DNA of 39,130 nt, taken from the NCBI GenBank assembly GCA_013152435.1, contig JAADGJ010000071.1:1-39130 (forward strand), in the 5' to 3' direction. Each line of letters begins with the position of its first letter. The stretch's first letter is position 1. Both the position numbers and the translations under genes were made by a program. This DNA comes from Chloroflexota bacterium (lineage in GTDB: Bacteria; Chloroflexota; Anaerolineae; DUEN01). Below the pieces are notes generated by a model. That model was not told the DNA's origin, searched no databases, and saw only the letters and a list, made by a program, of their open reading frames with translations. Below are positions 2,939 through 32,444 of this stretch, one piece after another.

Positions 2939-5671
2939 TCAGCCTCCCCGTAGCTTGGCCAGGTCCTCATCGATGGCCTTCAGCTTTTCCTCTGTCAAGA
3001 GGTGCGGGACGAAGTTGGCGAGCTCCTCCAGCGAGAATTGCATCGCGGAGCCGACCTGCGGCGCGTTGAGCCTGTCGCCGAAGTGCTTCTCCAGGATGGC
3101 CCTGGCCCGCTCGTCGGCGAGCAGATCCCTGAGCTTGCTGCGGATACTGAGTTCGGGAGCGGGCACCTCCCCGGTCGGGCCTCCGATCGGCTGTGTGGTC
3201 GTCTCCTTCCAGGCGAACGAGCCCTGGACCCGGATATCACGGGACGAGCTCCCGACCAGCACCTCGAACTCGCCCGCCTCCGTCACCCACGCCTTTTGCT
3301 GGGGATCGTAGAACGCCAGCGCCCTGGCATCCAGCGTGAACGTCACCGTCTTCGCCTCACCAGGCTCCAGCGCGACCTTCTGGAATCCCCGGAGCTCCTT
3401 CTCCGGCCGCAGTACGCTGGCCTCCACGTCCCGGACGTAGAGCTGCACCACCTCCTTGCCCGCACGCGAGCCCGTGTTCTGGACGTCCACGGAGACCCGG
3501 ACCTCCTCGCTCGTCTCGGCGGGATCGATCCGCAGGTTGCTGTAGGCGAAGGTGGTGTAGGAGAGCCCGTGGCCGAAGGGGAATAGCGGCTCGATCTTCT
3601 TCTTGTCATAATATCGGTAGCCGACGAAGATGCCCTCGCCGTAGAAGACCTGGCCGCGCTCGCCCGGGTAGTTGATGTAGGCGGGGTTGTCCTCCAGCCG
3701 CTTGGGGAAGGTCGTCGGCAGCTTGCCGGAGGGGTTCACGTCGCCGAACAACACATCGGCGATGGCGTTGCCGCACTCCTGGCCGGGGAACCACGCCTCG
3801 AGCACGGCCGGCACCTTGTCCAGCCACCCCATGGTGACCGGTGCGCCGGTCTGCAGGACGACGATGGTGTTGGGATTGGCCGCGGCCACCCGTTCCACCA
3901 GCTCCGCCTGGCGGCCGGGCAGCTCCATGTCCGTGCGATCGAACCCCTCACTCTCCCAGTCGCCGTTGGTGCCGATGAACAGCAACGCCACATCCGACTC
4001 GGCGGCGAGCTGCGTCGCCCGCTCGATCGGGTCGCCGATGACGGGGGGCTGGCAGCCGACGATCAGGCCGCCCAACATGGCGTTCCCCTTGGTGTATCGG
4101 ATCTCGATCTCGTATGCCTGCCCGGCCGTCAGCTCGATCTCCCCCTTCTTCTCCTGGCTGCCCGCCCCGAAGAAGGCCTCGCCGGGCGTTTGCTCCGTCC
4201 AGTTGTCCACGACCTCCCGGCCGTCGATGTAGAGTCGGCTCAGGCCGGCGCTGACCAGGCTGAACGTGTATGTGCCCGTCTCCGGCACCGTGAGCGTGCC
4301 GCGCAGCCGGGCGGAGAACTGGCCGGGGTTCACTCCCGGCGCGAACTCCCCGATCCAGAAGAAGCGCAGATTTCGGGTCACCTGCGTGAGGACGGGCTCG
4401 CCAGACAGGTCGGGGGTGTTGTAGTACTCGCAGGTCAACCCCGGCCCCTGTCCCTCGGCTGGCGTGAGCCAGTCGGCCTCCAGGAGCGGCGTGCCCTTGT
4501 GGTTGGTGCAGCCCTGCTCGTACCGGACCTGGATCGCGTCCCCGCATCGGTTCCGAATGCCCTCGAGCGGCGAGACGGCGTAGTGCGGGTTGACCTGAGC
4601 GCTGCCGCCGCCCATGATCTGTGCGACCCTGGCGTTCGGCCCGATGACGGCGATGGTCTTGATCTTGCCCTCGTCCAGTGGCAACACGTCGCCTTCGTTC
4701 TTCAGCAGCACGATCCCCTCGCCCGCCGCCTCCCGGATGAGGGCCCGGTGCTCCGGCTTATCCACGGCCTTTTCCGGCTCCTCCGGGTGATCCATGGCCC
4801 CCGTCTTCAGGATGATGCGCAGCAGACGCCGGACCTTGTCGTCGATGATCTCCTCGCTGACCAGCCCGTCCTGGACAGGCTGGAGCAGCTTCTTGCCCAG
4901 GAATCGGGCCGGGCCGGGCATCTCCAGGTCGAGCCCGGCGTTGGCGGACTCCACCGTGCTCTTCGTGGCGGTCCAGTCGGAGACCACGACCCCCTGGAAC
5001 TCCCACTCCCCCTTCAGGATCTCACTCAGCAGGTAGGGGTGCTCGCAGCAGTGCGTGCCGTTCAGCCGGTTGTATGCGCCCATGATCGCCCATACGTCGG
5101 CCTCCTTGACCGCCGCCTCGAACGGGATCAGGTAGATCTCACGCAGCGCCCGCTCGCGCACCTCAGAGCTGATCGACAGGCGCTCGAACTCCGAGTCGTT
5201 GCATACGAAGTGCTTGATGCACGCGCTCACGCCCTGGCTCTGCACGCCCTTGATGTAGCTCACGGCGATGCGGGACGTGAGGTAGGGATCCTCGGAGTAG
5301 CACTCGAAGTTGCGGCCGCCCAGAGGGGAGCGATGGATGTTCACCGTGGGGGCCAGGAGCATATGGGCGCTTTTCGTCCTCGTCTCCTCACCCAGGGCCA
5401 CGCCCACACGGTGGATCAGCTCCGGGTTCCATGTGGCCGCCAGGGAGACGCCGGCCGGGAAACACGCCGACGTGAGGCCGCCTTGCCACTGGCTGCCCCG
5501 GGCACCGTTGGGGCCGTCCGTCATCTTGAACGGCGGGATGCCCAGCCGCTCGACCCCGGTGCTGTGCCACATGTCGGAGCCGGCGGTCATGGAGACCTTT
5601 TCCTCCAACGTCATCTGGCTCAGCAGTGCTTCGATGCGCTCTTCCATGGGCTGCGATGGTTGGTCGGACAT
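2939..5671 (-). CDS. GH3 beta-glycosidase with inserted PA14 domain and helical C-terminal tail
   Basis: This 910-residue glycoside hydrolase family 3 enzyme probably releases beta-linked glucose or xylose from oligosaccharides or plant glycosides. The N-terminal barrel carries MTDGPNGARG, KHFVCND (153-159) and the nucleophile aspartate D232 in VVVSDWTA. The second GH3 domain holds the SEGFDR and LPGRQAEL segments. A PA14-type module (about 400-540, with CEYYNT and RLYIDGREVVDNW) is inserted in it. A fibronectin-like domain follows, then about 70 residues starting LSIRSKLRDLLADERAR that are shared with the neighbouring rhamnosidase. There is no signal peptide, so it is probably cytoplasmic. 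The start has a strong AAGGAGG site. It is the last gene of the glycoside operon. Confidence 0.93.
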   Translation of the reverse strand: MSDQPSQPMEERIEALLSQMTLEEKVSMTAGSDMWHSTGVERLGIPPFKMTDGPNGARGSQWQGGLTSACFPAGVSLAATWNPELIHRVGVALGEETRTKSAHMLLAPTVNIHRSPLGGRNFECYSEDPYLTSRIAVSYIKGVQSQGVSACIKHFVCNDSEFERLSISSEVRERALREIYLIPFEAAVKEADVWAIMGAYNRLNGTHCCEHPYLLSEILKGEWEFQGVVVSDWTATKSTVESANAGLDLEMPGPARFLGKKLLQPVQDGLVSEEIIDDKVRRLLRIILKTGAMDHPEEPEKAVDKPEHRALIREAAGEGIVLLKNEGDVLPLDEGKIKTIAVIGPNARVAQIMGGGSAQVNPHYAVSPLEGIRNRCGDAIQVRYEQGCTNHKGTPLLEADWLTPAEGQGPGLTCEYYNTPDLSGEPVLTQVTRNLRFFWIGEFAPGVNPGQFSARLRGTLTVPETGTYTFSLVSAGLSRLYIDGREVVDNWTEQTPGEAFFGAGSQEKKGEIELTAGQAYEIEIRYTKGNAMLGGLIVGCQPPVIGDPIERATQLAAESDVALLFIGTNGDWESEGFDRTDMELPGRQAELVERVAAANPNTIVVLQTGAPVTMGWLDKVPAVLEAWFPGQECGNAIADVLFGDVNPSGKLPTTFPKRLEDNPAYINYPGERGQVFYGEGIFVGYRYYDKKKIEPLFPFGHGLSYTTFAYSNLRIDPAETSEEVRVSVDVQNTGSRAGKEVVQLYVRDVEASVLRPEKELRGFQKVALEPGEAKTVTFTLDARALAFYDPQQKAWVTEAGEFEVLVGSSSRDIRVQGSFAWKETTTQPIGGPTGEVPAPELSIRSKLRDLLADERARAILEKHFGDRLNAPQVGSAMQFSLEELANFVPHLLTEEKLKAIDEDLAKLRGG

Positions 5672-5707
5672 GGAAGCCTCCTTCGCTTTATAGATGGATT
5701 CCAGGCG

Positions 5708-5734
5708 CTCGCGGCGAGCGGGGATCGCCGCGAG
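5708..5734 (-). other. Intercistronic hairpin between GH78 and GH3 genes
   Basis: Arms CTCGCGGCGA (5708-5717) and TCGCCGCGAG (5725-5734) enclose a 7-nt loop, directly after the GH78 stop codon. No U-tract follows on the minus strand. It is more likely an RNA-processing or stability element setting the GH78:GH3 ratio than a full terminator. Confidence 0.45.
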
Positions 5735-8656
5735 TCACCGTTGTATTAGCTCGGCCTCAATGGCTTGCAATACCTCGTCCGTCAGCGCTCGCGGCGCATA
5801 ATCCGCCAGCTGGGCGAGGGATAGGTCCATGATCTGTTCCAGCGGCGCCGTGTCGATCGCGTCGGATACGTATTTGGCCAGGATCTTCCTGGCCCGCTCG
5901 TCGGCGAGCAGCTCTCGTAGTGGGCTGTGAATGCTGAGCTGGGCGGCCTCTTTTGCCGCCTCTCTCAGCGCGCTGGCCTCATATACGAAGTCGTATCGCC
6001 CGGATCCTATCTCGACCAGGACGGCATCCTGTGTCTGCTTGGCCCTGGTGATCCCTTCGGCCTCGCGAAGCGGGCGCCCGCTCTCGGTCACCTGCTCCAG
6101 GATCGCATGGGGCAAGCGCACCGTGGCGTGGGTGTTAGCCGGGATCGACACCGACAGGTGGAAGCGATCCTCGGTGAGCTCCCAGGAGGACTCGATAGGG
6201 CCGTACATGGAGTGCAATGTGGCCCGGGCGTGGGTGAGGCCGCCGCCCGGGTGGGGCTGGATCCGGATATGCTTGTAGCCGGGGCGGTCGGGGTCCACGT
6301 CGATGCCGGCGACCACGCTGTATAGCCAGTGGCCGATGGCGCCGAAGGCGTAGTGGTTAAAGGAGTTCATGCTGGGATCCTGGAACTCCCCATTCGGTTT
6401 GATCCCGTCCCACCGCTCCCAGATCGTCGTGGCGCCCCACTGCAGCGCGTACAGCCAGGAGGGGTAGGTCTCCTGGTTCAACAGCGTGTAGGCGACGTCC
6501 AGGTATCCCATCCGGCTGAGCACATGGCACAGATAGGAGGTCCCCACAAAGCCCGTGGACAGGTGGTTGTCCCGTCTGCGGATGTCCTCCACCAGCCGGC
6601 GTGCGGCCTCGGGACGTTGCTCCTCCGATAGCAGGTCGAACGCCAGCGCCAGCACGTAGGCGGTCTGCGTGTTGGGAGAGAGGCGTCCCCGCCCGGTGAC
6701 GAATTCCTCTCGGAACGCCTGCCTGATCTTGGCCAGGAGGTCTGCGTACTCCCGGGCGTCCTCCTCCTTGCCCAGGATCTGGGCCGTGCGCTGTACGATG
6801 CTGGTGGAGTAAGCGAAGTAGGCGGTGGCGATGAGGTCGAAATCCGTGGCCGCGTTGGGCCACCTGGCGTCGGGAGAGGTGACGGATAGCCAGTCGCCGA
6901 AATGGAAGCCCGTGTTCCAGAGGTACTCATCTCCCGCCTGCGCCCGGATGTACTCCACCCACGCCTTCATGCTCTCGTACTGGGACTCCAGGATGCGTCG
7001 GTCGCCGTAGCAGAGGTAGATCGTCCAGGGGACGATGGCGGCCGCGTCGCCCCAGGCGGCCGATCCGGCGTTGGCGGGCCCCAGCGCGTTGGGGATCACC
7101 CAGGGCACGTTCCCATCCTCCCGCTGATCGAGCGCCAGGTCCCGTAGCCATTTGGTGAAGAAGGCGGCCACGTCCATGTTGAAGCAGGCCGTTCGGGCGA
7201 AGACCTGGGCATCCCCGGTCCAGCCCAGTCGCTCATCTCGTTGCGGGCAGTCGGTGGGCACGTCGAGGAAGTTCCCCTTCTGTCCCCACACGATGTTGTG
7301 CTGGAGTTGGTTGATCAGGGGATGGGAGCATTCGAAATGGCCCGTCGGGGTGATGTCGGAGTGGATCACGATGCCGGTCAGATCGTCGAGGGTGGGTTCG
7401 CCGGGATAACCCTCCACCGCCACGTAGCGGAATCCGTGGAAGGTGAAATGCGGCTCGAAGGTCTCCTCCCCCTCCCCTTTCAGGATGTACCGATCCGTCT
7501 GGTCGGCCGAGCGCAGGTTCTCGGTATACAGATTGCCCTCTTGATCGAGCACTTCGGCGTGGCGGAGGGTGATCACCGTGCCCGGATCGCCGTGGACGCT
7601 CAGGCGCACCCAGCCGACCATGTTCTGCCCCATGTCGAAGACCAGCTCCCCCGCCGGCGTCCGGATGATCTCGACCGGCCGGATCTCCTGGATCCTGCGC
7701 ACGGGAGGACCCGCCGGGGCGACCAGGATCTCCTTGCTGTGTTCGACGACCCGCACGCCCGACCAGGTGCTGTCGTCGTACCCGGCCTGGCTCCATCCCG
7801 GCTTCTCCAGACGAGCGTCGTAGATCTCGCCCTTATAGATGTCCGACATGCGGATGGGGCCGGTCGACGACTTCCAGCTCTCGTCCGAGCATACCATCTC
7901 CACGCGGCCGTCCTCATAAACGATCCGGATCTGCAGCAGCAGCGCCAGCTTTTCCCCGTAGGTGTTCCGTTTGCCCTCGAAGGCGAGGTAGCCCCGGTAC
8001 CAGCCGTCGCCCAGGGTGACGCCGATCGCGTTCTCGCCCGGTTGCAGGTATTCGGTCACATCGTAGGTCTGGTACTGCAGTCGCTTGTGGTAGCTGGTCC
8101 AGCCGGGTGTGAAGAGCTGGTCCCCCACCCGCCGGCCGTTCAGCTCCATCTCGTACAGGCCCAGGCTGGTGACGTACGCTCGGGCCGATTTCACGGCGCC
8201 GTTCACCGTGAACGCCGTACGGAGCATAGGGCAGGGCTGAGGGATGGAGGTATCCTCGTCCAGATCGGGCTCGATCCACTTGGCCTGCCAGTCCTCCGGG
8301 CTCAGCAGGCCCATCTCCCAGAAGGCCGGCTCGCTCCAATCGGAGGGGCGGTCATCCCGGTCCCAGACGCGCACTTGCCAGTAGCAGCGCTGCCCCGATC
8401 GCAGGGAGGGACCCTCGTAGACGCGATGGATGGATTCCTCGGATGCGACTTTGCCCGAGTCCCACAGTAGATCCTCCCCGGAGGTCAGCGCGTCCGCGCT
8501 GGGGGCCACCCGGATCTGATAGGCGGCCTGGATCACATTGCGTCCCGGGGCCTCGATCTGCCAGCTGAGGCGGGGCCGCGTGACGTCGATGCCCAGAGGA
8601 TTCACCTTGTACTCGCAGCGTAAATTCGTGACCAGAAGAGAAGGGGCCGAGCTCAT
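5735..8656 (-). CDS. GH78 alpha-L-rhamnosidase
   Basis: This 973-residue family 78 glycosidase releases terminal L-rhamnose from glycosides, saponins or pectin-derived oligosaccharides. N-terminal beta domains (about 1-400, including YVTSLGLYEMELNGRRVGD and FTPGWTSYHKRLQYQTYDV) precede the alpha/alpha barrel. The barrel carries the family signature DCPQRDERLGWTGD (469-482), holding the acidic substrate-binding and catalytic residues, and later TIWERWDG. After the C-terminal beta domain comes a 65-70 residue helical tail (LSIHSPLRELLADERAR) closely related to that of the downstream GH3 enzyme. There is no signal peptide, suggesting action on imported oligosaccharides. The ribosome site GAGGAGG supports the start. 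The upstream gene is a Fe-alcohol dehydrogenase 96 nt away with no clear promoter between. Confidence 0.93.
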   Translation of the reverse strand: MSSAPSLLVTNLRCEYKVNPLGIDVTRPRLSWQIEAPGRNVIQAAYQIRVAPSADALTSGEDLLWDSGKVASEESIHRVYEGPSLRSGQRCYWQVRVWDRDDRPSDWSEPAFWEMGLLSPEDWQAKWIEPDLDEDTSIPQPCPMLRTAFTVNGAVKSARAYVTSLGLYEMELNGRRVGDQLFTPGWTSYHKRLQYQTYDVTEYLQPGENAIGVTLGDGWYRGYLAFEGKRNTYGEKLALLLQIRIVYEDGRVEMVCSDESWKSSTGPIRMSDIYKGEIYDARLEKPGWSQAGYDDSTWSGVRVVEHSKEILVAPAGPPVRRIQEIRPVEIIRTPAGELVFDMGQNMVGWVRLSVHGDPGTVITLRHAEVLDQEGNLYTENLRSADQTDRYILKGEGEETFEPHFTFHGFRYVAVEGYPGEPTLDDLTGIVIHSDITPTGHFECSHPLINQLQHNIVWGQKGNFLDVPTDCPQRDERLGWTGDAQVFARTACFNMDVAAFFTKWLRDLALDQREDGNVPWVIPNALGPANAGSAAWGDAAAIVPWTIYLCYGDRRILESQYESMKAWVEYIRAQAGDEYLWNTGFHFGDWLSVTSPDARWPNAATDFDLIATAYFAYSTSIVQRTAQILGKEEDAREYADLLAKIRQAFREEFVTGRGRLSPNTQTAYVLALAFDLLSEEQRPEAARRLVEDIRRRDNHLSTGFVGTSYLCHVLSRMGYLDVAYTLLNQETYPSWLYALQWGATTIWERWDGIKPNGEFQDPSMNSFNHYAFGAIGHWLYSVVAGIDVDPDRPGYKHIRIQPHPGGGLTHARATLHSMYGPIESSWELTEDRFHLSVSIPANTHATVRLPHAILEQVTESGRPLREAEGITRAKQTQDAVLVEIGSGRYDFVYEASALREAAKEAAQLSIHSPLRELLADERARKILAKYVSDAIDTAPLEQIMDLSLAQLADYAPRALTDEVLQAIEAELIQR

Positions 8657-8752: not shown

Positions 8753-9931
8753 TTACAGCGCGCGGCGCAGGATATCGGCCAGCGTCTCGTCGGAGAGGGA
8801 CACCGGGTTATACCGCATCGAGCTGGCCCTCTTCGCCTGCTGGACGAGGTCCGGGATGTCCTCCTCGGTCATGCCGAATTCGGAGAGCTTCGGTATCTTC
8901 AGGGCCCGCACCAGCTCTTCCACAAAGGTGATGCCCGCGTCGATGGTGGCGTCCTCCGTGGAGAGCCGTCGCCCGAGCAGGGCCTGCCCGACGTCGGCGT
9001 AGCGGGTTAACACGGGGCTGTTGGGGTCTTGCCTGCGCAGCGTGGCCACGTTGGCGGCCATGACGTGAGGCAGCAGGGCGGCGCAGACCACTCCGTGCGG
9101 TATGGGGAAGCGGGCTCCCAGGGGCGAGGCGAACCCGTGCACGGCGCCCAGGCCCGCGTTCGCCAGGCAGATGCCTCCCATGAGCGCCGCCAGGGACATC
9201 TCGTCGCGTGCGTCGGCGTCGTCCCCGTTCTCGTACGCCCGCCGCAGCGATCGGGCGATCAGCCGGATCCCGGTGAGCGCCATGCCGTCCGTCAGGGGCT
9301 GCGCCCGATTGGACACGTACGGCTCGATCACCTGGGTCAGCGCGTCCAGCCCGGTGCTGGCCGTGACCTCCGGGGGCATGCTGTGCGTCAGGGCCGGGTC
9401 GACCAGTGCCACGCGAGGGATGAGGTATGGGCTGCGCATGCTCGCCTTGAAGTGCTTCTCCTTGTAGGCGATGACGGCGTTGCGCGTGACCTCGGAGCCG
9501 GTCCCGGCCGTGGTGGGGACGGCGATCAGGGGAGCGGCCGGCTTCGTGAGCGGCTTCCCCTGCCCGATCACCTCCATGTAGTCGAGGGCGGAGCCGCCGT
9601 TGGTGAGCAGGCCCGCCGTGGCCTTGGCCGTGTCGATGACGCTGCCCCCGCCCAGGCCGATGACCATGTCGCAGCCCGCCGAGCGAGCCTCCTCCAGCGC
9701 CTCGTCGACGGTGGAAATCTGGGGCTCCCCCTTCACCCTGTAATACGCCCGGCCGATCCCGTGGGCGTCCAGGTGTGCGGCCAGCCGGTCGATGATCTTC
9801 CCGGTTCGCAGGAATTCGCCGCCGTGCACGACCATCGCCTTGCGGCCGAATCCGGCGGCGATCTCCCCGATGCGATCGAACTCATCACGCCCATAGATGA
9901 TGCGGTTGGCTGTGTAGAACTCGAACTTCAT
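8753..9931 (-). CDS. Iron-containing (group III) alcohol dehydrogenase family protein
   Basis: This 392-residue NAD(P)-dependent oxidoreductase has the group III metal-dependent ADH fold. Visible motifs are IGLGGGSVIDTAK (nucleotide binding, about 91-103), PTTAGTGSEVT (139-149), GLDALTQVIEPYVS (194-207) and the HGFASPLGARFPIPHG metal region. In FucO-type enzymes the metal ligands are D, H, H, H. Here the second position in DALT(H) is Gln (Q200), a variant I believe occurs in some subfamilies but cannot check. Its place beside a rhamnosidase suggests reduction of lactaldehyde or another aldehyde from deoxysugar breakdown, but the substrate is inferred. The start has a GAGGAGGGG ribosome site. 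Confidence 0.88.
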   Translation of the reverse strand: MKFEFYTANRIIYGRDEFDRIGEIAAGFGRKAMVVHGGEFLRTGKIIDRLAAHLDAHGIGRAYYRVKGEPQISTVDEALEEARSAGCDMVIGLGGGSVIDTAKATAGLLTNGGSALDYMEVIGQGKPLTKPAAPLIAVPTTAGTGSEVTRNAVIAYKEKHFKASMRSPYLIPRVALVDPALTHSMPPEVTASTGLDALTQVIEPYVSNRAQPLTDGMALTGIRLIARSLRRAYENGDDADARDEMSLAALMGGICLANAGLGAVHGFASPLGARFPIPHGVVCAALLPHVMAANVATLRRQDPNSPVLTRYADVGQALLGRRLSTEDATIDAGITFVEELVRALKIPKLSEFGMTEEDIPDLVQQAKRASSMRYNPVSLSDETLADILRRAL

Positions 9932-9960
9932 CGCCCCTCCTCTGCAGGTATGTTGGATGA

Positions 9961-10020
9961 AAGACGAGGGACGGCCGTTGCCCCTCGTCGCCTCTCGCCC
10001 CTCGTCTTCTGTCCTCTGTA
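9961..10020. repeat. Word-type low-complexity repeat (CGAGGGGCGA/CCCCTCGTC words)
   Basis: This gap is made of variants of CCCCTCGTC and its complement GACGAGGGG. The outer words AAGACGAGGG (9961-9970) and CCCCTCGTCTT (9998-10008) can pair as a hairpin. It lies within the operon and has no coding capacity. Similar degenerate word repeats recur at 32455-32571, 35132-35181 and 37142-37205. Confidence 0.6.
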
Positions 10021-10024
10021 GGCG

Positions 10025-10330
10025 TCACCACGCATCATCGGGAGGGAACAGGCTGTAATGGCGAACGCCCTGCCTGGGCTGCGCCATCCAATCGGCGACG
10101 GTCTCTCGCCACCTCAGGTAGTGTGGGGTCTGTTGGTGGCGTGCGAAGTCCTCCTTCGTTCGGTAGACCTCGTATAGGAAGAAGCGGGTGGGCTCATCCT
10201 CCGCCTGCAGCACGTCGAAACGGACATTCCCTGGCTCCTGGCGGGTGTTGAGGTGGTTGTCCTTCGTGGCCTCGATGAACTGATCCACGTATTCCGGTTT
10301 CACCCAGACGGTGACGCAGACGACATACAT
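10025..10330 (-). CDS. LsrG-like antibiotic-biosynthesis-monooxygenase (ABM) fold protein
   Basis: A 101-residue dimeric alpha+beta-barrel protein. The core NHLNTRQEPGNVRFDVLQ, followed by RFFLYEVYRTKEDFARHQQTPHY, closely follows the E. coli LsrG pattern; LsrG processes phosphorylated AI-2. ABM relatives also act as isomerases or oxygenases on sugar-derived compounds. The start at 10330 is fixed by an AAGGAGG ribosome site; the frame continues to 10405 but would run through the promoter. It is the first gene of the operon with the ADH, GH78 and GH3 genes, so a role on a sugar catabolite is as likely as quorum-signal breakdown. No lsrK, lsrF or lsr transporter is visible. Confidence 0.82.
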   Translation of the reverse strand: MYVVCVTVWVKPEYVDQFIEATKDNHLNTRQEPGNVRFDVLQAEDEPTRFFLYEVYRTKEDFARHQQTPHYLRWRETVADWMAQPRQGVRHYSLFPPDDAW

Positions 10331-10376
10331 GGTAGCCCTCCTTACATGCTGAGATGCCGAATCGCCCTGTGCTCGC

Positions 10377-10421
10377 ATTCTACCATCCTGTGAGGATGGC
10401 CGCAAACGTTTGATGCAAACG
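10377..10421 (-). promoter_or_regulatory. Promoter and double operator of the glycoside operon
   Basis: On the minus strand TTGCGG (10405-10400) and TAGAAT (10382-10377) are 17 nt apart. The spacer is itself a perfect dyad: CCATCCT (10383-10389), GTG, AGGATGG (10393-10399). Overlapping the -35 is the palindrome CAAACGTTTG (10403-10412), which has the central CG core typical of LacI/GalR-family operators. A second dyad, CGTTTG and CAAACG around ATG, spans 10407-10421. A repressor bound here would block RNA polymerase. No regulator gene is in the window. Confidence 0.65.
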
Positions 10422-10523
10422 GGGCTACTCTCGCCCCTGGGGTGGCTCCAGGGGGCTCCTTTAGGGCCTCGTGGGGAATTCCAGGCGCGCTACGGGGTGA
10501 AACAAGCGGCGGCGACGTGGGAG

Positions 10524-10561
10524 CCGAGGCGGGCGGAGCATGGGGACTCCGCCTGCCTCGG
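10524..10561 (-). terminator. Strong hairpin downstream of the sugar dehydrogenase gene
   Basis: A 15-bp stem (10524-10538 with 10547-10561, one G-T pair) surrounds an 8-nt loop. It lies 67 nt past the stop of the minus-strand gene ending at 10628. There is no U-tract. The core is almost the same as the hairpin at 2814-2839, so it may be a repeated extragenic palindrome as well as a transcription end. The rest of 10422-10627 shows no gene. Confidence 0.5.
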
Positions 10562-10627
10562 GGAGTTCATCTTAATTCACCGCGGCCTTCGCCAGCCGGG
10601 GCCGTCGTCGGAGGGCGACCTCTCCGG

Positions 10628-11899
10628 TCACGGAGCGGCCACGATGCGATAGATGGAGCCATCGCCATAGTGGACGACGTAGAGTTCTCCCTCCGCGTCC
10701 TCGCCGAAGGTGCTGATCTGCAAGCCGCTCTGGAGGAGCTCTGTCATCTCCCATGTGCCCGCCGGGCTTTGCAAGAGGCCCCAGATCCGCCCGGTGCAGA
10801 AGTCCCCGAACAGGTACACGCCGACGAGCGCGGGGTATCGGCTCCCGCGATACACATAGCCGCCCGTGATGGAGCATCCCAGCGTGTGGTCGTACTCGAC
10901 CACCGGAAGCACCAGCCCCTCCGTCTCGCATCCGGTCTCCGGCTCGAAGCAATGGGCTCCCTCCATGATGTCCCAGCCGTAGTTCTCGCCGCCCGGGCTG
11001 TTCGCCGGCTGGACGTCCACCTCCTCATAGCGGTTCTGGCCGACGTCGGCGATGTACAGGTCGCCGGTGGCCCGGTCAAAGGAGAACCGCCACGGGTTCC
11101 GCAGCCCCAGCGCCCAGATCTCGGGGCGGGCTCCCGGCCGGTCGACGAAGGGGTTGTCGGCGGGGATCGCGTACGTCTCCACCCCGGCTACGTCGATTCG
11201 CAACATCTTACCCAGGAGCACGCCGAGGTTCTGGGCGTTCCCCCACGGATCTCCGCCGCGCCCCCCATCTCCTGTGCCGATGTAGAGGTATCCATCCGGG
11301 CCGAACTGAAGCTGGCCGCCGTTGTGGTTCCGCGCCGGCTGGTCGATCTGGAGGATGATCTGCTCGCTGGCGGGATCGGCCCGCCGTGGGTCGCCGTTGG
11401 GAGCCCGGTAGCGGGCGATGACGGTGTCCCCCCGGCGATCCGTGTAGTTGACGTAAAAGAGCCCCGTGGTCGCGAAGTCCGGCGGGAAGGCGACGCTGAG
11501 CAGCCCCTGTTCCGCTCCGCCGGAGCCCACCCGGTCGGTGATGTCGAGGAAGGGGGTGGGGAGTACCTCGCCGCCCTCGACGACCCGGATGCGCCCGGCC
11601 CTTTCCACCACGTAAACCCGGGCGGGGTCTCCGGCGTGGGTGAGGTACACGGGCTGTCGGAAGCCGCTGAACGCCGGCTCCAATGCGATGGAAGGGGGCC
11701 TCGTGGGCTGGGATTCCGGGGGCTGGGCTTGCGGTTCGAGAGTCTGGGGCTGCGGCGTGGCCGTGGGAATCGACGTGGCCGTCGGCGGGGCGGCGGTAGG
11801 TGAAGGGGCTGGCTTCTCGGACCTGCACGCGTTGACCAGGAGGAGCAGGCCGACCAGGATCAGGCCATGGATATAAACGGGATAGCGAGTTCGGTTCAT
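10628..11899 (-). CDS. PQQ-dependent aldose sugar dehydrogenase-like lipoprotein
   Basis: This 423-residue soluble-glucose-dehydrogenase-type six-bladed beta-propeller is expected to oxidise aldoses outside the membrane using pyrroloquinoline quinone. The N-terminus is a lipoprotein signal (hydrophobic LILVGLLLLV then VNAC, Cys25), followed by a Pro/Thr/Gln-rich linker to about residue 68. The catalytic domain shows GAEQGLLSVAFPPDF, RNHNGGQLQFGPDGYLYIGTGDGG (catalytic-type His in NHNGG), WALGLRNPWRFSFD, ADVGQNRYEEVD and YGWDIMEG, all typical of the GSDH/YliI family. The ribosome site AAGGAG supports the start. It is probably cotranscribed with the LCP gene 165 nt upstream. No PQQ synthesis genes are in the window. 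Confidence 0.9.
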   Translation of the reverse strand: MNRTRYPVYIHGLILVGLLLLVNACRSEKPAPSPTAAPPTATSIPTATPQPQTLEPQAQPPESQPTRPPSIALEPAFSGFRQPVYLTHAGDPARVYVVERAGRIRVVEGGEVLPTPFLDITDRVGSGGAEQGLLSVAFPPDFATTGLFYVNYTDRRGDTVIARYRAPNGDPRRADPASEQIILQIDQPARNHNGGQLQFGPDGYLYIGTGDGGRGGDPWGNAQNLGVLLGKMLRIDVAGVETYAIPADNPFVDRPGARPEIWALGLRNPWRFSFDRATGDLYIADVGQNRYEEVDVQPANSPGGENYGWDIMEGAHCFEPETGCETEGLVLPVVEYDHTLGCSITGGYVYRGSRYPALVGVYLFGDFCTGRIWGLLQSPAGTWEMTELLQSGLQISTFGEDAEGELYVVHYGDGSIYRIVAAP

Positions 11900-11940
11900 A
11901 GGGTACTCCTTACGTTGGGATCTTCGGACGGGAGCTGGCT

Positions 11941-11952
11941 GGGCGATCGCCC
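11941..11952. other. 12-bp palindrome containing GCGATCGC
   Basis: GGGCGATCGCCC is a perfect palindrome in the gap between the LCP and sugar dehydrogenase genes. Its core equals the octamer that is over-represented in cyanobacterial genomes. A single copy here carries little weight. Function is unknown. Confidence 0.35.
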
Positions 11953-12064
11953 GTTTGACCGGCGCAGAGTGGGGGAGGGGGCCTGAATGCCGTGAGGGAA
12001 GGGGAACATCGGGGCTCGCCCAGGACGATCCGAAGGGCTCGTGCCGGATAGGTCTGCTCGCGTG

Positions 12065-17522: not shown

Positions 17523-17552
17523 AGGCCATCGTCTCACCTGAGACGATGGCCT
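17523..17552 (-). terminator. Terminator hairpin of the sat-cysC gene
   Basis: A perfect 14-bp inverted repeat (17523-17536 with 17539-17552) and 2-nt loop lies 36 nt past the stop codon. Read on the minus strand it is followed by CTTTCTGTC, a modest U-tract. Confidence 0.75.
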
Positions 17553-29543: not shown

Positions 29544-32444
29544 ATGATCTATTGCGTTGAGGTGTCGACCCGAGAGGGGATCCGTGATGCGCGCGGGGAG
29601 AGCATCCTGCGGCAGGTGGACGCGTTGGGCATCGATGGCGTGAACGCCGTCCGCGTGACGGACCTGTATTTCCTGCAAGGGGATCTGGACCCTGAGGCCG
29701 TGGAGCGGCTGGCCGACACGCTGTTACACGATCCGGTGGTGGAGGAGGCCCGGTGGCATCCGTTTCCCGACGGGGCCGGGGACCGTTCGGCCCCCGGCGC
29801 GTGGGTCGTCGAGGTGTCCCTGTTGCCGGGCGTGACCGACAGCGTGGCCGAGAGCCTGTTGGAGGGCGCTCGCATGATCGGCGTGGCGGGGTTGGAGCGT
29901 GCGGCCACGGGCCAGCGCTACACGCTGCAGGGCGCCCTGAGCGAGTATCAGGCGCGCCTCATCGCCGAGCGCCTGCTGGTCAACGAGGTCATCCAGACAT
30001 ACGCGATCAACCGGGCGATCGACCCGCCGTTTGTGCCGGTGCAGGAGGCCGACGATACGGTGGAGGTGATCCCCATCACCGAGGCGGACGACGACGCCCT
30101 GGAGGCCATCAGCCGGGAGCGCCGCCTGTCCCTGGATTTGAACGAGATGCGGGCCATCCAGGCTTACTATCGCCGGGAGGGCCGCGAGCCCACCGACGTG
30201 GAGCTGGAGACCCTGGCGCAGACCTGGTCGGAGCACTGCGTGCACAAGACGTTCAAGGCGTTCATCACCTATGAGGAGCCGGGGCCGGACGGGACCCCGC
30301 GTCATCGTCACATCGATTCGTTGCTCAAGACGTACATTCGCGCCGCCACGGAGCGGGTCGACAAGTCCTGGGTGCGCTCCGCTTTCGTGGATAACGCGGG
30401 CATCGTGGCCTTTGACGATCGATTCGACCTGGCCTTCAAGGTGGAGACGCACAACCACCCTTCGGCGCTGGAGCCGTTCGGCGGGGCCAACACGGGGGTG
30501 GGAGGCGTCGTGCGGGATGTTCTGGGGGTCAGCGCCCGGCCTATCGCGAACACGGACGTGCTCTGCTTCGGCCCACAGGATCTGCCGTTCTCCGAGCTGC
30601 CGACCGGTGTGTTGCATCCCCGCCGCATCGCCGACGGGGTGACGGCTGGCATCGAGGATTACGGCAACAAGATGGGGATCCCCACAGTCAATGGGGCCAT
30701 CCTCTACGATCCGGGTTACACGGCCAACCCGCTGGTGTTCTGCGGCTGTCTCGGGATCCTGCCTCATGGTGCCCACCCTCGCGAGCCGCAGCCCGGCGAT
30801 CTGGTCGTCGTGATCGGCGGGCGCACGGGGCGCGATGGGCTGCGCGGCGCCACCTTCTCCTCCATGGAGATGACCCACGAGACGGGCGAGGTGGCCGGCA
30901 GCGCGGTGCAGATCGGGCATCCCATCCACGAGAAGCAGGTGCTGGAGGTCGTGTTGCGGGCCCGGGACGAGAGGCTGTACACGGCCATCACCGATTGCGG
31001 CGCGGGCGGGCTCTCCTCGGCCGTGGGCGAGATGGGGGCCGAGCTGGGCGCGGAGGTACATCTGGACCGGGTGCCGCTGAAGTACGCCGGCCTGCGTCCC
31101 TGGGAGATCTGGCTGAGCGAGGCGCAGGAGCGCATGGTGTTGGCCGTGCCGCCCGATCGCTGGCCGCGCCTGCAGGAGATCTGCAAAGGCCAGGACGTGG
31201 AGGCCACGGTGCTGGGGACGTTCACCGGCGACGGCCAGCTGACCCTGTACTATGGCGATCGCGTGGTCGGCCGGCTGTCCACGGACTTCCTGCATAACGG
31301 CATCCCACGTCGACATCTGCGTGCCGTGTGGACCCCGCCGGCCGTCTCGGAGCCCCATCTCCCTGGCCCGTCGGACCTGACGGCGGACCTACTGGCGTTG
31401 CTGGCCGATCCCGACACGCGCAGCAAGGAGGACGTCGTTCGCCGTTACGATCACGAGGTGCAGGGCGGCACGGTGGTGAAGCCGTTTGTCGGGCGGGAGG
31501 ACGCCGGGCCGAGCGATGCCGCCGTGCTGTATCCGGGGGGAGAGATCGGAGATTGGGGATCACGCCGCGGGATCGCGATAGCTTGTGGGATTCGCCCTCG
31601 CTATGGGTTCATTGACCCGTACGCCATGGCGTGGGCGGCGGTGGACGAGGCGATCCGGAACTGCGTCGCCGTGGGCGCGGATCCGGACCGGATCGCGTTG
31701 CTGGACAATTTCTGTTGGGGGAACCCCAGCCTGCCGGATCGGTTGGGCGCGCTGGTGCGCTGTGCGCAGGGATGCTACGACGCCGCGGTGGCTTACGGCG
31801 CTCCCTTTGTCTCCGGCAAGGACAGCCTGAACAACGAGTACACCGATGCGGAGGGCCGCAAGCGCGCCATCCCCGGCACCCTGCTCATCTCGGCGTTGGG
31901 GATCGTGCCGGACGTGCGGCGGACGGTGACGATGGACCTGAAGGCCCCTGGGGATTGGCTGTACGTGGTGGGGGTAACGGCCGACGAGTTGGGCGGGTCG
32001 AGTTATTACCATCGGCACGGGGAGCTGGGGGCGAACGTGCCGCAGCCGCCCGAGCGAGGGATCGAGCGGTATCGGGCGCTGCACCGGGCCATCGCCCAGG
32101 GGATCGTTCGGGCATGTCACGATTGCTCCGAGGGCGGTTTGGCCGTGGCCCTCGCCGAGATGTGTCTGGCGGGGGGATTGGGGGCGGAGGTGCACCTGGC
32201 CGATGTGCCGCGGGCGGATGGCGTCGATCGGGATGACGTGGTGGCGTTCAGCGAGTCGTTGGGGCGCTTCATCGTGGAGGTGACGCCGGAGGATGCGCCC
32301 GCGTTTGAGGCGTGTCTGGAGGGGCAGCCGATCGCTCGGATTGGGCGTGTGCGGGAGGGCGGCCGGGTGCAGATGGTGGGCCTTGACGGTCGCCTTGTGA
32401 TCGACGTGGACCTCTCAGCGATCGAGCGGGCCTGGCGCGGATAG
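29544..32444 (+). CDS. purL: Phosphoribosylformylglycinamidine synthase with duplicated PurS-like N-terminus
   Basis: This 966-residue FGAM synthase converts FGAR to FGAM with ATP, using ammonia from PurQ. Residues 1-72 ([28 protein letters not shown]) and 86-157 ([28 protein letters not shown]) each look like a PurS unit, together mimicking the PurS dimer that forms the N-terminal domain of large PurL. The catalytic part shows [71 protein letters not shown] and [17 protein letters not shown]. There is no glutaminase domain; that activity comes from the separate purQ 1.8 kb downstream. The start has a GGAGATGGGG site. Its stop overlaps the ribosome site of the next gene. Confidence 0.96.

Follow-up and report, generated by a model that had tools for sequence, protein, structure and literature searches.

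Positions 10377–10405 of the window, the whole 39,130-nt stretch of Chloroflexota DNA analysed here, have the sequence of a genuine extended −10 promoter of the ordinary bacterial type on the minus strand. This promoter would drive a gene pair encoding an ABM monooxygenase and an Fe-containing alcohol dehydrogenase (the ABM/ADH pair), and the two glycosidase genes that follow may share the transcript by read-through. The best explanation of the whole, to which we assign a probability of about 55%, combines the promoter with an RbsR-type repressor site and a palindrome that occupies the spacer by chance. A LacI-family repressor of the RbsR/PurR type would probably bind GCAAACGTTTGA, covering the −35 hexamer and presumably blocking RNA polymerase, and would be released by a sugar ligand, which by homology may be ribose. 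Sequence comparison shows the promoter, its conservation, the absence of both palindromes from relatives and a motif match to sites upstream of an RbsR-like gene of the same genome. The region represents ordinary biology, with a known kind of promoter/operator arrangement.

The minus-strand promoter and its genes

The promoter and the genes downstream comprise the following features, those of the promoter and the ribosome-binding site being assigned from sequence:
10377–10382, minus strand: −10 hexamer, TAGAAT
10383–10385, minus strand: extended −10 element TGG, forming TGGTAGAAT together with TAGAAT
10383–10399, no strand assigned: 17-nt spacer, CCATCCT-CAC-AGGATGG in minus-strand letters
10400–10405, minus strand: −35 hexamer, TTGCGG
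10336–10343, minus strand: Shine-Dalgarno sequence, AAGGAGGG
10025–10330, minus strand: gene 1, ABM-domain protein (ABM monooxygenase), 101 aa (Pfam ABM, 2.5e-21)
8753–9931, minus strand: gene 2, Fe-containing alcohol dehydrogenase, 392 aa (Pfam Fe-ADH, 1.1e-49)
5735–8656, minus strand: gene 3, GH78 alpha-L-rhamnosidase, 973 aa (Pfam)
2939–5671, minus strand: gene 4, GH3 glycosidase with a PA14 domain, 910 aa (Pfam)

Read on the minus strand from 10421 to 10377, the region runs CGTTTGC-ATCAAACGT-TTGCGG-CCATCCTCACAGGATGG-TAGAAT. A TGN abuts the −10 and the −35 lies 17 nt upstream, as in sigma-70 extended −10 promoters, and the TTG, the 17-nt spacer and the TGG before TARAAT are all matched; the weakness of the −35 aside, there is no notable difference from that class. 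A strict sigma-70 scan of positions 9000–12000 found no promoter because the −35 fits at only 3/6 positions. A genome-wide search for TTG-N17-TGGTARAAT gave 15 matches, compared with 0 for the reversed control. The promoter is also kept upstream of the ABM gene in two relatives, as TTGCGA-18-TAGAAT in G001 (same genus) and as TTGTAG-17-TAAAAT in G003 (same family), both with the extended TGG. The distance from the −10 to the ATG is equal in this genome and in G003, and ~110 nt longer in G001. The promoter proposed in the initial annotation is therefore borne out by its conservation and by the genome-wide pattern, and the sequence evidence gives no sign of transcription starting elsewhere.

The ABM gene begins 46 nt downstream of the −10. 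Its product is weakly LsrG-like (NCBIfam NF007791, 90.9 bits, below the 135-bit cut-off) and is 94% identical to its counterpart in G001 and 91% identical to that in G003; the nearest named relative, from Caldilineae bacterium J4 (Chloroflexota), is 94% identical. In 54 of the 74 places with an ABM gene, spread over several phyla, an Fe-ADH gene follows it at a distance of at most 400 nt, and 5 of the 20 remaining places, where no ADH adjoins, have at most 300 nt of downstream sequence. A literature search found no recognisable account of the ABM/ADH pair in the sources accessible to it. In the 93-nt gap between the two genes (9932–10024), repeated GACGAGGG words and an inverted repeat, AGACGAGGG...CCCTCGTCT, are present that were not seen in the corresponding gap of G003.

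The glycosidases show a different distribution. Neither GH78 nor GH3 genes lie beside the ABM/ADH genes in any of the 38 of these 54 places with at least 2.5 kb of downstream sequence (0/38), and relatives of the GH78 gene (E ≤ 1e-80), found at 12 places in 9 of 59 other genomes, have no ABM or ADH match at their loci (0/12). Because the ABM/ADH pairing is widespread and the glycosidases occur elsewhere without it, the conserved role of the promoter lies with the ABM/ADH pair. The glycosidases are a local addition, following ABM/ADH only in this genome among those compared. The intergenic gaps of 93, 96 and 63 nt contain no TGGTARAAT box, and co-transcription of the glycosidases with the pair is possible. 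The description of these genes as a glycoside operon is nevertheless doubtful, since ABM and Fe-ADH come first and GH78 and GH3 only third and fourth. The GH3 and GH78 proteins (2939–8656) have in common a C-terminal stretch of ~70 residues, 46% identical and outside the Pfam domains, which also ends the GH78 relatives at L204 and L205.

A candidate RbsR-type operator over the −35 hexamer

Three features, all on the plus strand, lie at and beyond the −35:
10402–10413, plus strand: candidate LacI-type (RbsR/PurR-like) operator GCAAACGTTTGA, overlapping the −35 (matrix score and motif search)
10403–10412, plus strand: operator core CAAACGTTTG, with its TTG in common with the −35
10415–10421, plus strand: possible half-site GCAAACG, whose CG lies 13 bp away from the middle of the main site (sequence)

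The overlap of CAAACGTTTG with the −35, as first described, is confirmed by the TTG common to both, and its description as a LacI/GalR-like core agrees with the sites found at the PurR/RbsR-like regulator of this genome and with its recurrence at a sugar-transporter promoter. GCAAACGTTTGA is an even palindrome with a central CG and an AAnCGnTT core. According to the accessible part of PMC4052901, most LacI-family motifs are even palindromes centred on CG, and most lie 30–140 bp before the start codon, a range that includes the window site at ~77 bp. The window site resembles RbsR/PurR operators in being even and CG-centred with the core AAACGTTT, but it is one core, 1 letter off the symmetric 12-mer, and the genes it precedes are not ribose genes. 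CAAACGTTTG is a plausible LacI-type operator, and a single RbsR-type site over the −35 is probably the best reading of this region.

The genome has 8 LacI-family genes and the window none; all 8 lie on other contigs. The candidate regulator is encoded at C58:41735. Its DNA-reading head is PurR-like, and among proteins of solved structure it is closest to the ribose repressor 9ny7 and PurR. RbsR is the NCBIfam model that fits it best (353.6 bits, below the cut-off of 531), and it is followed by genes that were read by eye from their translations as RbsD, RbsC and RbsB. Its promoter carries the cores AAAAACGTTTGC and GCAATCGATTGC, 12 bp apart, so that the genome encodes a regulator with the window-type motif at its own promoter.

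Sites resembling GCAAWCGWTTGC are present at the promoters of this regulator and of its relatives. Relatives of at least 57% identity were found in 6 other genomes, with cores spaced by 12 bp in 4 of the 6 (L161–L164) and a single core each in the remaining two, which belong to one genus (L165 and L166). Among more distant relatives, surveyed with three short loci left out, the pattern varies, with 12-bp pairs in L167 and L170, a wider pair in L185 and no cores in several. Overlapping cores 12 bp apart are accordingly seen at RbsR-like genes of the class at L117:10681–10704 (C58), L161–L164, L167 and L170. A point against the RbsR reading is that the window has a single site where the regulator's promoter has tandem ones. 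Five other LacI regulators were rejected as owners of CAAACGTTTG, their upstream palindromes being different, and the remaining two, C132 and C76, showed no upstream palindrome above the cut used, so that either of them may be the owner.

With a matrix built from the autoregulatory sites of RbsR relatives, GCAAACGTTTGA scores 18.2. Three sites in 614,519 bp of sequence from this genome reach at least the window score, namely the window site itself, the one at C46 and one at the regulator's promoter; the window site ranks third, and the higher site of the regulator belonged to the training set. At C46:22990 the core lies over the −35 in the same register as in the window (TTGCAC-17-TAAAAT), and composition predicts 0.0019 such same-register cases among the 14 other promoters. 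The operon there includes genes for a sugar-type binding protein and an ATPase and two permease-like genes (permeases and ATPase by eye); the leader is ~430 nt, so the assignment of the promoter to this operon is itself presumptive. G001 has a binding protein 95% identical to that of C46 and keeps the promoter, and the core is absent there.

Motif counts are less distinctive. CAAACGTTTG occurs exactly in 5 places in the genome, against 1 for the reversed pattern, a count that is unremarkable in itself, the placement being more telling. GCAAWCGWTTG is found in 6 places, comprising 3 promoters (window, C46 and C58), 2 sites within reading frames and 1 intergenic site; it gives 8 strand hits, where composition predicts 4.4 and the reversed control yields 2, and as a count the enrichment is not clear. 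GCAANCGNTTGC at 1 mismatch was discarded as too loose for use (174 versus 187 in the control).

These counts bear on an alternative that we regard as possible but unlikely, in which the promoter is unregulated, both palindromes are coincidental and the ABM/ADH pair is expressed without sugar control. G001 and G003 keep the promoter and neither palindrome, and the matrix scores at their ABM genes are 0.3 and −5.5, respectively. Because only 1 of the 3 family members with the ABM gene has the site, phylogenetic footprinting gives it no support. In G050, which has both a relative of the regulator (66%) and an ABM gene, inspection by eye revealed no site upstream of ABM. A comparable near-palindrome, GCAAAGGTTTGC, also lies over the −35 of a promoter in the window register at L148 near 14255 (C15); it has no CG centre, and the gene there, identified from its sequence, reads as nusA, at whose promoter sugar control is not expected. 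Against this alternative, the window site is among the top scorers, an equal register is found at the sugar-transporter promoter, and the genome has a motif-bearing regulator of which no close homologue was found in G001–G003. None of these three relatives has a protein above 46% identity to the C58 regulator, the best in G001 being 46% identical. The joint absence of site and regulator fits the RbsR reading, although the genomes are few and incompleteness, with G001 92% complete, could contribute.

If confirmed, the RbsR-type site would add a regulon to a little-studied Chloroflexota group, for which the literature search found no RbsR regulon beyond the accessible part of PMC4052901, and would connect the ABM/ADH pair with ribose sensing in a way open to testing.

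The palindrome in the spacer

The spacer at 10383–10399 is, as the initial annotation had correctly given in letters and coordinates, a 17-nt perfect inverted repeat with 7-bp arms and a 3-nt centre that reads GTG on the plus strand. The window contains 42 perfect inverted repeats with arms of at least 7 bp and loops of 0–8 nt, where Markov sequence gives 32 on average, and the probability that a random 45-bp stretch has such a repeat is 0.022 in Markov sequence and 0.032 in the real genome. Among the 15 TTG-N17-TGGTARAAT promoters, 1 dyad with arms of at least 7 bp was observed and ~0.3–0.5 were expected.

The dyad occurs exactly once in its own genome, and the one 1-mismatch copy adjoins a start codon; contexts were read for these two places only. 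At up to 2 mismatches, 29 places were found against 7 in the reversed control, a control that is weak for this search owing to composition. No copy at up to 1 mismatch is present in G002 or G003, and G001 has 3 one-mismatch places, counted irrespective of their context. The spacer at the homologous position is CCAGACGGGGAGGGATGG in G001 and GTATCTGGAATGGGTGG in G003; the dyad is absent from the conserved promoter in both, its left arm not being kept, and the end of the right arm is common to them because it is promoter sequence. As a regulon operator, the dyad shows no recurrence at other promoters among its exact and 1-mismatch copies in this genome, nor at the conserved promoter of G001 and G003, and it was rejected as a regulon motif at up to 2 mismatches in this genome and up to 1 mismatch in three relatives. 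Most likely, the spacer palindrome is a dyad formed by chance out of promoter sequence and not a second operator. A striking palindrome can pass for an operator, and here two near relatives and the regulator's own promoter show which of the two sites is the likely one.

Dual repression, in which the dyad would be occupied by a second repressor and CAAACGTTTG by a LacI protein, and rhamnose or a glycoside would act as inducer, is improbable in the light of these results. It would account for the perfect dyad that exactly fills the spacer, an event with a probability of ~1e-4 for a given 17-bp spacer, although this placement was noticed post hoc. A GH78 rhamnosidase does lie downstream, and a species-specific operator would be expected to lack conservation. 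However, no sister copies at other promoters were found among the exact and 1-mismatch places of this genome, the left arm is not kept in relatives, dyads of this size occur among promoters at the chance rate and all 8 LacI genes lie on other contigs. The dyad is also neither even nor CG-centred, unlike most LacI motifs in the accessible part of PMC4052901. Both palindromes, whose lack of conservation in relatives had been named at the outset as grounds for abandoning the proposal, are absent from G001 and G003, where the promoter is kept. Relief by rhamnose or a glycoside is likewise unsupported, as the candidate regulator is of the ribose-repressor type and the conserved genes are ABM and ADH.

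Rhamnose regulators known from the same phylum offer a further comparison. In the Chloroflexales, these are the DeoR-type RhaR and the LacI-type RhmR, the latter predicted for an alpha-L-rhamnosidase operon (PMC3870299, accessible part). In that account, RhaR sites are tandem TCGAAA repeats, none of which is seen in 10377–10421, and the RhmR gene adjoins its operon, whereas the window has no LacI gene. The RhaR repeat was rejected as an explanation, since it does not fit the window.

Also improbable is a recent rewiring, whereby a ribose-type repressor would in this species have gained −35 sites at the sugar ABC-transporter operon and at ABM/ADH, the glycosidases would have been added and a second regulator would be evolving its site in the spacer; if true, this would amount to an integrated control found in no relative. 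It is very improbable that the dyad acts as an RNA hairpin in read-through from the upstream GSDH gene (10628–11899, minus strand). Such read-through would transcribe the dyad, and further hairpin-like repeats occur at 10434–10454 and 10532–10553, but no U run follows the dyad, a terminator scan gives none there and the dyad is not conserved. The least probable reading is a MerR-type activator that twists an over-long spacer from a dyad lying, as here, wholly between the −35 and −10, because MerR-type promoters have 19–20-nt spacers, the spacer here is 17 nt (18 in G001, 17 in G003) and the relatives have no dyad.

Other features of the window

Three perfect inverted repeats, at 301–337 (18-bp arms), 2266–2294 (14-bp arms) and 17523–17552 (14-bp arms), are perhaps terminators. 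A single reading frame at 29544–32444 encodes PurS- and PurL-type domains together.
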